Assembly: GCF_030846775.1 (NCBI RefSeq)
Contig: NZ_CP132910.1
Span: 2,638,001 to 2,702,000, forward strand
Origin: Geothrix sp. 21YS21S-2
GTDB taxonomy: Bacteria; Acidobacteriota; Holophagae; Holophagales; Holophagaceae
Reading direction: 5' to 3'
DNA: 64,000 nt
Below, one piece after another: positions 8,814 through 13,978 of this stretch. Both the position numbers and the translations under genes were made by a program. Below the pieces are notes generated by a model, which saw nothing but the letters and a program-made list of their open reading frames with translations, was not told the origin of the DNA and did no database searches. Numbering within the stretch: the stretch's first letter is position 1; each line of letters starts with the position of its first letter.

Positions 8814-9152
8814 TTATTTTTTCAGAATCTGCACAAGAAAGGTGAATACAAATCCGATTCCATAAAAAATAATCCCATTAACCACGACGCCAGCAAGCCA
8901 AACGAACCATGCAATACCACCCGTGCTCCCAACAAAAAACAATTGAATAAATTGTCCCGGACAGATCATAAAAATAAACTTATTTAACAGAAAATACATG
9001 TGCGGAGCAGTGTAGTTTTGAAATTGAGTAGAATCCGATAATAAAGGCAGATTAAAAGGATTGGCCATCCGAATATAATAGAACATACCAACAGAAATTA
9101 GACCAAGACAAATACCGATAAATGCCATTTTTTTTGGAAGATTTATGTTCAT
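8814..9152 (-). CDS. Small AT-rich multi-pass membrane protein, probable immunity protein for the RHS toxin
   Basis: A 112-residue hydrophobic protein I do not recognise. It has three or four predicted membrane segments: MAFIGICLGLISVGMFYYI, a middle stretch around FIFMICPGQFIQLFFVG, and a long hydrophobic C-terminus (AWFVWLAGVVVNGIIFYGIG). It starts 11 bases after the RHS stop with AGGTGG as ribosome-binding site. An upstream ATG at 9167 would overlap the RHS stop as ATGA but has a poorer site. The coding stretch is strikingly AT-rich compared with its surroundings, which is typical of immunity and orphan genes at RHS 3' ends. Position and topology suggest protection against the toxin tip; no homology supports this directly. 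Confidence 0.7.
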   Translation of the reverse strand: MNINLPKKMAFIGICLGLISVGMFYYIRMANPFNLPLLSDSTQFQNYTAPHMYFLLNKFIFMICPGQFIQLFFVGSTGGIAWFVWLAGVVVNGIIFYGIGFVFTFLVQILKK

Positions 9153-9163
9153 ACCTATCCACC

Positions 9164-12100
9164 TCATTTCCCTGGGTATTTCCGATTCAACAGTTTAACC
9201 ATTTCTTCCGGCGTTACGACCAGCGGAGCTTGAATACCAGCAATATTCAGCACCTCCTTGACCCATTCCACACAGTTCCGGACTATTGGATGGTATACTT
9301 GCGGAACAAGAACCGCTTTTTCCATGAACTTTACCATCACCAAAGCCTCCTCGTGGGTGATGCGCATCGTTGCTGTAGATATCAAATTTTCCTTCGGATT
9401 CATAGGCACGACACGACCTCCGGCAAGCGAAGAGGAAGGCAGCCCCGTTAGGGCTACTCCAAGACCTTCCTTCGCGAGTGCAACGGCCGAATCAAGGGTC
9501 GAATCTGGTATAAGGCCGAGCGCCTGCCCCTCGCCGACCTTGATCACAAGATGACCCCAGGCCGTATTACCCGTAATGTGATGGATTTGGACATTGACCC
9601 GCCCCGATGGCAGCCCTTCTCCAGCTCGCTCGGCATTCACGAGCCTGGTGATTTCTTCGGTCCTGGATTCCGGGGTCCCCTGGATACCCTTCTGGGCGTC
9701 GGCAAGAGCCAGTGTCCGTGTTATCCGCATCGTTCGCATGATCTCGGAACCTTGTTTTCTCAGGGCCTCCTGCAGTTCCCGATCGGCGGCTTTGACAAGG
9801 GACTGGGGGTTCCCCTGCGTCTCGAGGGCCTGTTGCAATCTCAACTTGAAAACCGTTTCCTCAAAGGCCTTCTGGTCTGCTTTCCTCTTCGCTTCCTCCG
9901 CCTTGGCCTTCTCCCACGCCACGGCCTCGGGAAGAGGCGGCGGCAATCGCAATGACCCTTTTCTCTGGTAAACCGCCGAATAGATATTGTTCGGATCATG
10001 ACTCCACCGCTCGAATTCCGCGCAGGTCATTCCGTCGGGCCGGGGGCCCCCGCCACCTCCCACCGCGGCGGGCTGGCCCGCGTCCGGCAGTCCTTCTCCT
10101 GTGGGAAAAGGTGGACCCGATGGAACATTGGGAACGAACATGGGACCGGGGATCCCCATGAACGGGATCGGACGGTCGCACGGAATCGGCCCGACATGGT
10201 AGGGGATGGGTTCCAGGTTGCCCCACACCGTGACCGTGGCGGACCCGGCGAATGGCGGTTTGCCGCCGGCCATCCCGGTGGGGTCCGTGACTTGGAAGGG
10301 CCTCCCGGCGGCATATGCGAACGAGTTCCAGGACCGGGGATCGACGCCACGATCGGGGGTCAGGAACCTGTGCCAGGCGGGGCTGTAGAACCTCGCCCTC
10401 ATGCAGATCAGGCCGCTGGCTTCCGTGCGGAGGTGCCCGGTGTATCCCGTCAGCGGCGTGTAGCCGGGCGAGGCTTCCAGGGTTTCACCCCATGGGCCGA
10501 AGTCCTGACGGCCTTCGATTGTCCCGGTGGAACCGGAGGTGACGATCCTTGGCGTGCCAAGGTGGTCAGAATGCAGTTCATGGACGCCCCCGCGATCCAC
10601 CTCGGCGAGGGCCTCCTCACCCAGGTAGAGGATGTCCCGACCCCAGCGCCCGTCTCCGAAGTATTCGGACAGGAGCCTGCCGTCGTTCAAATAAACGAAT
10701 TGCCGATCCGCCCCATGGTCCGCCGAGTCCGAGAATACCGCCATCAGGCCTTGGGGTGAATAACGGTACCTCTGGACGCCGCCGGATTGGGATCCAGCAA
10801 CTTCCGCCAGACGTCCGAATCCATCCCATGCAAGGTTCAGGCATCTGCGGCTTCCCGTGCCCGTACCCATCTGGGAAGGCTCTCCGCTGGGCTCGACGAC
10901 CCATCCGGTCAGGGCACCATTGGGCTGAATCCCGGGCATCCGGTTTGCGGGCAGCGGCGCAAAGGCGAAACCATTGAACGCGGCGGGCGGGACTCCTGAT
11001 ACCTGATGGGAGATGGCATTGCCGAAACCATCGCTCTCATGGAAGGTGTGCAAACCCAAGCCCACGGCTTCCTGGAGCCGGCCCGCCGAATCGTTGCGCA
11101 GCATCCATTCGCCCGCGGAAGCCAGTTCCATGCCGTCCCACGCGTAACTCCGGGACTCCACTCCACCCAGGTGGGACACCTCCCAGCCCAGCCAGCGGCG
11201 GCCCTCCCCTTCCCATTTCCAGGAACTGGCCGCGCCGCTGGCAAAGCCGAGGCGGGTGCGATTCCCCCATCCATCGTAGGCGACCGAGGCCAGCAGAGCG
11301 CCATCGTGGATCACCTTCGCGACCCGATCCAGGCCGTCGTAGCCGTATTCGACGACACGGCCTCCGGGATAGGTCATCCGGCCAATTCCCCCATTGGAAT
11401 CGTAGGCGAAGCGCGTGGTCCGCTCGACGCCGCCCAGGACAATGGTTTCCGAATCCATGCGAGCCCCCGGTGCCGAATAGGTGAACCTCTGGCTCACGCC
11501 ATCCGGACTTTCCCGCCCCATCAGGAACGGGCCGCGGTAGGTGGCCGCAAGCCTCTGGCCGCCCGACTGGGCTTCGACGACCCGGCCCAGGGCGTCGAAC
11601 ACCCTCCGGATGCTGCGGCCCGCGGCATTCGTCTCCAGGCCGGATTGCCCCCTCGCATTGAAGTCCGCGAAGACCGTAGTGCCCGTCTCGGGCTCCGCAA
11701 TGGCGGTGAGGTTGCCGATGCCGTCGAAGGTGAATTGACGGGTCTGGATCAGGCCTCCAGGTTCCTGCCGGATCAACCGGGTCGTCTGACCGAACTCGTT
11801 GTAGGTGGCCCGGGTCGTGCCTTCCACATCGGTCCGGGAAACGATCCGGCCCCAGGGATCGAAGGCCAGGGTCAAACCTGAGCCGATCTCCACCACCTGC
11901 GACGTGCCTTCCGCCCGGTAATTCAGGATCGGGTCCGTGCCATGCGGGGATCGGTCCAGGCGGATCCGGTCGAGCGCGTCGTAGGCGACACTCCGGACCA
12001 GCCGGGTGGTCTTCCCGACGCTTTCCTGCACCGACACGACTCGGCCCATCGTGTCGAAGGAAAACGTCTCCTTTACGCCGTCGCCGCGAAGTCTGGACTG

Positions 12101-13978
12101 GAGGCGCCCGAATCCGTCCACGGCCTCCAGGCCGTTGAGGCGCCCCTGGGTCCAGGTGCGGGTCTGCTCGTCCGGATAGGCGTACGTGAGCTCCGGCATT
12201 CCTGGCGCCTTCACGTTGAGGAGGCGGCCCCACATGTCGTACGTATAGGACGTGGCATTTCCTCGCGCATCCGTGTATTCGGCAACCTGCCCCCGATCCG
12301 TGTAGGACCATGCTTCCCGGAGAGGCTCGGCGAGGCGTTCCCCAGAAGTGATCAGCCCGATCGGCCCGAGCGGGCCCTGCTCCCACGTTCGGATCATTCC
12401 TGGATCCGGGGTCCAGGACGCCACCATCTGTGAACGGGTCCGCCGCCCCTCTGGATCGGTGGTGAACGATCCGCCCCGCTCCTGGCCTCCGGCGAGGAGG
12501 GAATGCCGGGTCAAGGCGCCCTGGGGCGACCGGATCCACCGTTCCACGACCAGCGGAAGCCCGGCCCTGGCCGTGACAACCGAGCAGGGGGGTTCACCCG
12601 GGAGGGCGCTGGCAGGTTCCATCGTCCGGATCTGCACCTGCTCGCCACCGACCACCAGGGTCTCTGTCAGCAGCCGCCGGGTGGACGGGTCGATGGCACG
12701 GAGCACGTCCATTGTTGGCCTCCCACTGGCCGTCACATGGATCCCGGCCGGAAGACAGCGGCCATCATCGCCCGGAAGCAGCGGATCTAGAATGGTCATC
12801 CTTTCCGTTCCCGACGATCCCGCAATCCGCTCGGAACGCAGGAAAGGGTTGGCCACGGTCGCGGAGAAGGTGTACTCCGTCCTGCGGTCCTCCGTGGCCT
12901 CCCCATCGGAATAGGCAGCCGTGTGGCTGACAGTCCATGTCTCGCCCCCCGGAGGGTCGCGGCGCCAGGTCTGCTCGAATACGGTCCCCGTACCGACGTC
13001 CAGGTCAACGGACCTCGTGACGCCCAGGAGGCTGGTTCCATCCGGATACCTGCCTTCCCCCCACGTGAACGTCGTGGCCAGTCCCTGCGGGCTCCGGAGG
13101 GTGCGTAGGACAGGAACGCCATTGTCCTCATAGCCGAACGTCCATTCCCTGAGGGCTGCGGCCTCCCCCAGCGACACCCGGACAGGGCGCCCCGAGGCGA
13201 AGGGATCGGTGGATGGAGTCGCCGGATGGCCCCGAACCAGGAGCGGTGGTCCCTGCATGCCGATGAATTCCGCCCGGAGCAGGTCCACCTCGGAATCCGG
13301 AGGCCCCCCCATGGCCCAGACGGCCTGGATACCCCTGCTCTGGGGGTTGGTTGCCAGCAGGATGAGGAACGATTCCGGCCCGCGCCGCTCCTCCAGCCAG
13401 CGGAAACGGATGGCATGCCCGAACCGGTCGATCCACAGTACCGGAACAAATACCTTCAGCGCATCCTGGTAGGCGTAGATCCGGGCCCGCTGGTGATCAA
13501 GGATCACCTTCAGGACGGAGGCAGGCGTGAGTGTGCCTACCTCTGCGCCCCAATGGCCCAAGTCCCGCGGGTCCGCATCACAGGACCCCAGGGTCCGGGC
13601 CGGGTCCATGGCGAGCGAGCCCGGAGGAATCGTGAACCCGTATGCCTGGGCCAGCGCGCTTCCGGCGGGCGGAGATGGCTGCCAGTCCGTATCCACAAAG
13701 GACCTTCCATCCTCGAGCACCTGGCGTCCGGGTCTCCCGCCCAGCGCAGGGGCGATGAATCCGAAATGCAGGGTGCCCTGGTTTCCCTGGTGGCGGTAGA
13801 CAACCTCCAGAGGCAGGTCTCCGGGGACCCTGCCGGCCGTCAGGACCCAGGAAAGGGCACCTGTCGAGGCCTCCACCCGATATTTCGCGCCGGTGGAGGG
13901 CGACCAGGGCCACAGAGCGGCAGGGGACAGGAACATGACGAAAGCAGACAGGGCTCCGCCCACACGGTGGTTTCTCAC
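9164..13978 (-). CDS. RHS/YD-repeat polymorphic toxin with papain-like (permuted NlpC/P60-type) C-terminal domain
   Basis: A 1604-residue RHS protein. A hydrophobic export segment (VGGALSAFVMFLSPAALW) is followed by roughly 1200 residues of YD repeats (YDALDRI, YDSNGGIGRMTYPGG, YSPQGLMAVF). The shell closes with the RHS core signature (YTGHLRTEASGLICMRARFYS, abridged; then FLTPDRGVDPRSW...VTDPTG). About 369 variable residues follow the core: a proline/glycine linker, a charged helical segment, and a final 141-residue domain. That domain carries WGHLVIKV and, 90 residues later, NCVEWVKEVLNIAGI, the His-then-Cys order of circularly permuted papain-like enzymes. I chose GTG 13978, which has GGAG eight bases upstream; the frame stays open to 14167. 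The toxic activity (peptidase, amidase or acyltransferase) is inference. Confidence 0.85.
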   Translation of the reverse strand: MRNHRVGGALSAFVMFLSPAALWPWSPSTGAKYRVEASTGALSWVLTAGRVPGDLPLEVVYRHQGNQGTLHFGFIAPALGGRPGRQVLEDGRSFVDTDWQPSPPAGSALAQAYGFTIPPGSLAMDPARTLGSCDADPRDLGHWGAEVGTLTPASVLKVILDHQRARIYAYQDALKVFVPVLWIDRFGHAIRFRWLEERRGPESFLILLATNPQSRGIQAVWAMGGPPDSEVDLLRAEFIGMQGPPLLVRGHPATPSTDPFASGRPVRVSLGEAAALREWTFGYEDNGVPVLRTLRSPQGLATTFTWGEGRYPDGTSLLGVTRSVDLDVGTGTVFEQTWRRDPPGGETWTVSHTAAYSDGEATEDRRTEYTFSATVANPFLRSERIAGSSGTERMTILDPLLPGDDGRCLPAGIHVTASGRPTMDVLRAIDPSTRRLLTETLVVGGEQVQIRTMEPASALPGEPPCSVVTARAGLPLVVERWIRSPQGALTRHSLLAGGQERGGSFTTDPEGRRTRSQMVASWTPDPGMIRTWEQGPLGPIGLITSGERLAEPLREAWSYTDRGQVAEYTDARGNATSYTYDMWGRLLNVKAPGMPELTYAYPDEQTRTWTQGRLNGLEAVDGFGRLQSRLRGDGVKETFSFDTMGRVVSVQESVGKTTRLVRSVAYDALDRIRLDRSPHGTDPILNYRAEGTSQVVEIGSGLTLAFDPWGRIVSRTDVEGTTRATYNEFGQTTRLIRQEPGGLIQTRQFTFDGIGNLTAIAEPETGTTVFADFNARGQSGLETNAAGRSIRRVFDALGRVVEAQSGGQRLAATYRGPFLMGRESPDGVSQRFTYSAPGARMDSETIVLGGVERTTRFAYDSNGGIGRMTYPGGRVVEYGYDGLDRVAKVIHDGALLASVAYDGWGNRTRLGFASGAASSWKWEGEGRRWLGWEVSHLGGVESRSYAWDGMELASAGEWMLRNDSAGRLQEAVGLGLHTFHESDGFGNAISHQVSGVPPAAFNGFAFAPLPANRMPGIQPNGALTGWVVEPSGEPSQMGTGTGSRRCLNLAWDGFGRLAEVAGSQSGGVQRYRYSPQGLMAVFSDSADHGADRQFVYLNDGRLLSEYFGDGRWGRDILYLGEEALAEVDRGGVHELHSDHLGTPRIVTSGSTGTIEGRQDFGPWGETLEASPGYTPLTGYTGHLRTEASGLICMRARFYSPAWHRFLTPDRGVDPRSWNSFAYAAGRPFQVTDPTGMAGGKPPFAGSATVTVWGNLEPIPYHVGPIPCDRPIPFMGIPGPMFVPNVPSGPPFPTGEGLPDAGQPAAVGGGGGPRPDGMTCAEFERWSHDPNNIYSAVYQRKGSLRLPPPLPEAVAWEKAKAEEAKRKADQKAFEETVFKLRLQQALETQGNPQSLVKAADRELQEALRKQGSEIMRTMRITRTLALADAQKGIQGTPESRTEEITRLVNAERAGEGLPSGRVNVQIHHITGNTAWGHLVIKVGEGQALGLIPDSTLDSAVALAKEGLGVALTGLPSSSLAGGRVVPMNPKENLISTATMRITHEEALVMVKFMEKAVLVPQVYHPIVRNCVEWVKEVLNIAGIQAPLVVTPEEMVKLLNRKYPGK

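Follow-up and report, generated by a model that had tools for sequence, protein, structure and literature searches.

The locus described here raises the question of whether an RHS protein of an acidobacterium ends in a toxin domain whose immunity protein is encoded by the small membrane gene directly behind it, and whether such a pair is new. A preliminary description of this DNA had proposed both. Our analysis of the window, by which we mean the whole stretch of 64,000 nucleotides, lends support to the toxin/immunity reading through the conserved pairing of the two genes, the swapping of tips within the genus and the occurrence of orphan membrane genes in integrons. The claim of novelty holds in part: the putative membrane immunity family is undescribed, but pairs of this kind are already known from Tox-Act1 and Imm-Act1 (PMC12994826). 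The conclusion that we consider supported is that the RHS protein carries a permuted NlpC/P60 toxin, probably lipid-acting, and is accompanied by this undescribed family.

The RHS gene and its C-terminal tip

The genome that holds the locus is a single contig of 5.25 Mb and shares its genus with a MAG from the Holophagaceae (Acidobacteriota). The longest open RHS frame runs from 14167 to 9164 on the minus strand and closes with a TGA stop at 9166-9164. Translation likely begins at a GTG at 13978, which has GGAG upstream, and the N-terminus that would result (MRNHRVGGALSAFVMFLSPAALWPW...) resembles a Sec signal. RHS repeats are recognized in the protein by Pfam above its cut-off (PF05593, 79.9 bits). 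The gene and its parts are as follows.

9164..13978, minus strand: RHS/YD-repeat gene, about 1604 aa, from the proposed GTG start and the repeat and core matches
10271..10498, minus strand: RHS repeat-associated core domain, last residues DPTGM (TIGR03696, 53.8 bits, cut-off 32.5)
9590..10270, minus strand: linker of 227 residues from core to tip, proline/glycine-rich and then a charged helical stretch (sequence, GC)
9167..9622, minus strand: putative toxin tip, a predicted permuted NlpC/P60-like domain, 152 aa modelled (AlphaFold2, VIA-align, homologous tips)
9551..9553, minus strand: predicted catalytic His in a GH motif (H13), invariant in alignments A1, A3 and A8
9272..9274, minus strand: predicted catalytic Cys in an NC motif at a helix start (C106), invariant in the same alignments

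The core had been said to end near 10274, and the TIGR03696 match stops at about 10271. Beyond it lies the linker, which has no Pfam match and whose GC content drops toward the tip. Overall, GC falls from 0.663 in the core to 0.515 in the tip and 0.345 in the membrane gene, and GC3 from 0.778 to 0.53 and 0.336, with neighbouring genes above 0.93.

In the final 141 RHS codons (9167-9589), WGHLVIKV comes first and NCVEWVKEV after it, which is the order of His before Cys that the preliminary description had read there, and both residues are invariant in every aligned tip, down to about 17% identity. The window tip has nothing above cut-off in Pfam, NCBIfam or PADLOC, including Lnb_N/DUF4105 (PF13387) in the Pfam search, and tblastn found no match to it among plasmids and phages. 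In the profile search against NlpC/P60, LRAT and DUF4105 that had been suggested, the window tip matches none of these families; two homologous tips described below (L004 and L005) exceed the cut-off for Lnb_N/DUF4105, with 24.3 and 23.8 bits against 22.2. The L005 tip also scores with PPPDE, TseH and LRAT, each more weakly than with Lnb_N. A three-sequence tip profile (A1) can be aligned over the His-to-Cys stretch with PLAAT enzymes, HRASLS2 among them, at E 0.09, the HRASLS2 match starting at the same GH motif as the predicted catalytic His, which as family evidence is suggestive only. A DUF2459 match (E 0.056) from the searches with the window tip and membrane protein was dropped because it spans 24 residues only.

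The AlphaFold2 model of the tip, built from a four-sequence alignment, reaches a pLDDT of 82.6 and a pTM of 0.79, and its top VIA-align match, clear of the rest, is TseH, a T6SS effector of V. cholerae (PDB 6v98; Z 11.6, rmsd 3.4, 125 residues, 11% identity). The GH...NC layout is common to both, and in a profile search the NC motif of the tip aligns with that of TseH, YDLDSHNC. The TseH sequence model (PF25218) is not matched by the window tip and gives E 0.13 with one homologous tip. The rows that follow in VIA-align (Z 5 to 7.5) are mostly structures of the same H-box/NC type, namely YiiX-like 3kw0, CLN5, PLAAT/HRASLS (about 5 to 6.5) and a picornavirus 2A protein; any single match in this range proves little, and it is their mutual agreement on the model that counts. 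Plain Foldseek returned nothing significant (best E 0.13, to CLN5), so the case for the fold rests on VIA-align. Taken together, the modelled fold and the Lnb_N/DUF4105 matches of the two homologous tips support placing the tip in the permuted NlpC/P60 superfamily (LRAT/Lnb/TseH-like), as had been claimed from the residue order.

The membrane gene and its pairing with the tip

Downstream of the RHS stop lies the second gene of the proposed pair.

8814..9152, minus strand: putative immunity gene, 112-aa membrane protein, GC 34.5% (hydropathy, AlphaFold2, homologues)
9159..9164, minus strand: AGGTGG, RBS-like, overlapping the RHS stop, 6 bases 5' of the ATG at 9152 (read from sequence)

Exactly 11 bases separate the RHS TGA from the ATG at 9152, for which AGGTGG is a plausible ribosome site; an alternative in-frame ATG at 9167 would overlap the RHS stop as ATGA. 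The gap, the AT-rich composition and the three- or four-helix membrane protein described earlier are all recovered, with three strong membrane segments by hydropathy and four helical elements in the AlphaFold2 model. That model has no clear structural match, the protein has nothing above cut-off in Pfam, NCBIfam or PADLOC, and a scan of viral contigs found no member of the family.

Two further tips came to light when 100 genomes were searched. One (L002/L004), 28% identical to the window tip, is in a MAG of a bog Holophagaceae of the same genus, and the other (L003/L005), 34% identical, is in a MAG of a distant acidobacterium; directly downstream of both stands a homologue of the window's membrane gene (40% identical in L004, 28% in L005). 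A pattern scan of genome contigs with the tip alignment recovered the same two relatives, and one with the single tip sequence gave no matches. We ran a profile of the membrane family (A2) on 13 chosen genomes, 396 genomes from across the phylum and all 77 genomes of the family, in sets that overlap, and besides the three tip/membrane pairs it had matches in two more genomes, G046 and G056. Across these several hundred Acidobacteriota genomes, every homologue of the membrane gene that we found stands next to such a tip, apart from those in two genomes of Holophagaceae from a different genus. The arrangement is more than chance: neither the His nor the Cys varies in the two nearest homologous tips, and each of these tips has a homologous membrane gene behind it. 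The comparison of 3' ends among related genomes that had been proposed thus places the membrane gene beside both close homologous tips; no close tip lacking it was found, and distant tips have other exported or membrane partners.

In L004 (3900-5396) the core domain is missing and the tip is joined to an early part of an RHS protein, as a deletion might have left it. The membrane partner is kept behind this shortened frame, with a GC of 0.35.

Could the pair be a decaying remnant, or be aimed at eukaryotic grazers, with no role in bacterial competition? The shortened frame in L004 and the failure to find TssC in the window genome would fit such an account, but the frames are open, His and Cys are conserved, and the partner gene is conserved and closely spaced. 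Toxins against eukaryotes, moreover, usually lack immunity genes, and we consider this account highly improbable.

The surroundings of related RHS genes follow the pattern of polymorphic toxins. In genus mates, the closest RHS relatives (L024 and L025, 40-43% identical in the core) end in unrelated tips followed by unrelated genes, and other RHS genes in these genomes mostly have a different tip and then a different small gene, often AT-rich; many of the genes behind swapped tips have a higher AT content than the RHS core. In the window genome itself, a second RHS gene is followed by a 110-aa gene with a GC of 0.34. Swapped tips with small downstream genes of their own are the polymorphic-toxin arrangement, and the window locus has its elements: repeats and core, a swapped C-terminal tip and a tip-specific small gene downstream. 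Among the loci of two genus mates, L031 and L038 (G005 and G002), one tip resembles an L,D-transpeptidase motif, SKGCPILN, and the other has the order GH...NPC and an adjoining small gene.

Tips of the same layout that are more distant occur in other Acidobacteriota. Those of L005 (second cassette), L053, L055, L056, L057 and L058 are followed by membrane proteins with two to three segments, those of L007, L051 and L059 by proteins with a signal-like N-terminus, and no cytosolic-looking partner was seen, by hydropathy and by eye, among the distant tips whose partner is readable. For the six closest tips, each partner is a membrane protein. These partner types point to the envelope as the site of tip action. 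Common descent of the window's membrane protein with those of the L005 second cassette, L055 and L056 is unsupported (hhalign 5%); a similar P...N..(I/L)Y pattern is present in the window's and the distant tips' membrane partners.

The partners also bear on what the tip might attack. A toxin/immunity pair whose tip acts on a cytosolic target protein, as a PPPDE-like isopeptidase or protease, would be in keeping with weak Peptidase_C97/PPPDE matches of several homologous tips (E 0.005 to 0.2) and with PPPDE structures among the profile-search matches. Those scores fall below the cut-off, however, Lnb_N scores better, and membrane or exported partners would not meet a cytosolic toxin, which makes this version quite improbable. 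Rather unlikely, in our estimation, is a pair whose tip is a periplasmic peptidoglycan hydrolase or amidase instead of a lipid enzyme. It is favoured by the best fold match, since TseH is a cysteine hydrolase in its PDB entry, by the cutting of peptidoglycan by canonical NlpC/P60 toxins (PMC3482391) and by the third cassette of L012/L005, whose tip is of a different, NlpC/CHAP type and looks unpermuted. Nevertheless, the tip has the permuted order, which in this superfamily is tied to acyl-lipid substrates (PMC12994826), the Pfam family nearest to it is that of the lipoprotein acyltransferase Lnb, and the six closest tips all have membrane-protein partners.

Two loci elsewhere in the phylum are of separate note. 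In L005/L020 (G078 contig C49, about 37.6-43 kb), three RHS C-terminal cassettes follow one another. The tips of two are permuted NlpC/P60-like and have a separate membrane partner each, while that of the third is NlpC/CHAP-like. The RHS tip of L011 (G152) has a clear TseH domain (PF25218, E 1.5e-22), a model that the window tip does not reach, and the protein encoded behind it has an N-terminus like that of a lipoprotein.

Proposed mechanism and relation to known systems

The reading that we favour, and regard as fairly probable, is that the locus encodes a polymorphic RHS toxin together with its immunity protein, the permuted NlpC/P60 tip acting on acyl lipids of the target envelope and being blocked there by the membrane protein. 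According to this view, the RHS shell would carry the C-terminal effector, of the LRAT/Lnb/TseH-like kind, to the envelope of a competitor, where the tip, through a thiol mechanism based on its His and Cys, would cleave fatty-acyl chains or transfer them, most likely those of membrane phospholipids and less likely those of lipoproteins. This would damage the target membrane, and the 112-aa protein, seated in the inner membrane, would block its cognate tip. The lipid substrate class is suggested by the superfamily to which the tip belongs, some of whose members, those like TseH, may attack other bonds. We likewise infer that the protein is exported and delivered, that it would be toxic and that its partner would neutralise it.

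As for the route, TssC (PF05943) was not found in the window genome, although two genus mates have it. Judged by TssC alone, the RHS protein is thus probably not delivered by a T6SS. The N-terminus fits a Sec route, by analogy with the teneurin-like toxins, for a number of which such a route is predicted (PMC13018210).

The closest known system is Tox-Act1, a Salmonella T6SS effector with a permuted NlpC/P60 domain (DUF4105/Lnb sister clade) that cleaves PG and PE and needs both its His and its Cys, together with Imm-Act1, a membrane immunity protein with two helices (PMC12994826). The window pair resembles it in the permuted domain, in the order of His then Cys (essential in Tox-Act1), in the neighbouring membrane-helix partner and in lying outside standard HMMs when found. 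It differs in that Tox-Act1 is a T6SS effector, whereas the window tip is the C-terminus of an RHS protein, and no TssC was detected in the acidobacterium that encodes it; the partner has three strong membrane segments against the two helices of Imm-Act1, the comparison being one of descriptions. Lnb/DUF4105 (PF13387), the lipoprotein N-acyltransferase of Bacteroides whose cut-off the two homologous tips pass, is a housekeeping membrane enzyme and not a toxin tip. The PLAAT/HRASLS and LRAT phospholipase/acyltransferases (PF04970), to which the His-to-Cys profile alignment leads, are animal enzymes, with sequence scores below cut-off. RHS/teneurin-like toxins (PMC3482391, PMC13018210) share the YD-repeat shell, the core domain, the variable tip and an immunity gene next to it; Sec export in place of a T6SS occurs in some of them, and the window's tip and immunity families are not among the families named in the portions consulted. 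Lipid-cutting permuted NlpC/P60 toxins have only recently been shown, in one T6SS effector, and its occurrence as exchangeable RHS tips across several lineages of acidobacteria, together with an undescribed membrane immunity family, would broaden the membrane-attacking weapons of soil bacteria.

Orphan copies of the membrane gene in integrons

Both genomes that have the membrane gene away from an RHS tip carry it as an integron cassette. The homologue in G046 (L047:6180-6485, contig C1; 101 aa) matches with 99.4% in hhalign and 38% identity over 84 columns, and it is flanked on both sides by attC-like sites, which belong to an array (L047:1-8585) of about 15 such repeats of the form GCCTAAC...GTTAGGC, a form that occurs 0 times in a reversed-sequence control. 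An integron integrase is encoded in this genome (TIGR02249, 456 bits, cut-off 265), with six more attC-like sites in the same stretch. The homologue in G056 (L063:4179-4484, contig C37) is also a cassette and shares a 4.7-kb stretch with an integron integrase (433 bits). A search of the G046 and G056 genomes with the tip profile found no tip, and none of the other cassettes in the two arrays matches genes of the RHS loci examined. Close copies of the G046-type attC were absent from three genomes of the genus, the window's included.

Orphan immunity genes are expected to occur alone in just this way, and solitary copies are hard to explain if the protein is a structural partner of the tip. This argues against an accessory role, as a translocation helper or tip anchor, which would otherwise suit a gene that adjoins all close tips in the searched genomes. 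Together with the pairing of other tips of the same fold with unrelated partners, the solitary cassettes in two genomes without a detected tip make such a role decidedly unlikely. Returning to the immunity reading, one attractive if tentative possibility, to which we give almost as much credence as doubt, is that the membrane gene represents a new immunity family, found beside RHS lipid-toxin tips and alone as integron cassettes, and that the integrons of these relatives serve as banks of orphan immunity against the RHS toxins of their neighbours. A study of immunity arrays in Vibrio notes that nothing there points to an integrase (PMC5361080), and our full-text search of the open-access literature found no other paper that brings orphan immunity together with integron gene cassettes. 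Orphan copies such as those in the two integrons would tie toxin immunity to gene-capturing elements and bear on the role of unnamed integron cassettes. Most of the scanned cassettes neighbouring the homologue in L047 encode small proteins that have no Pfam family and are membrane proteins, resemble lipoproteins or bear a signal; these are possibly further immunity-type genes.
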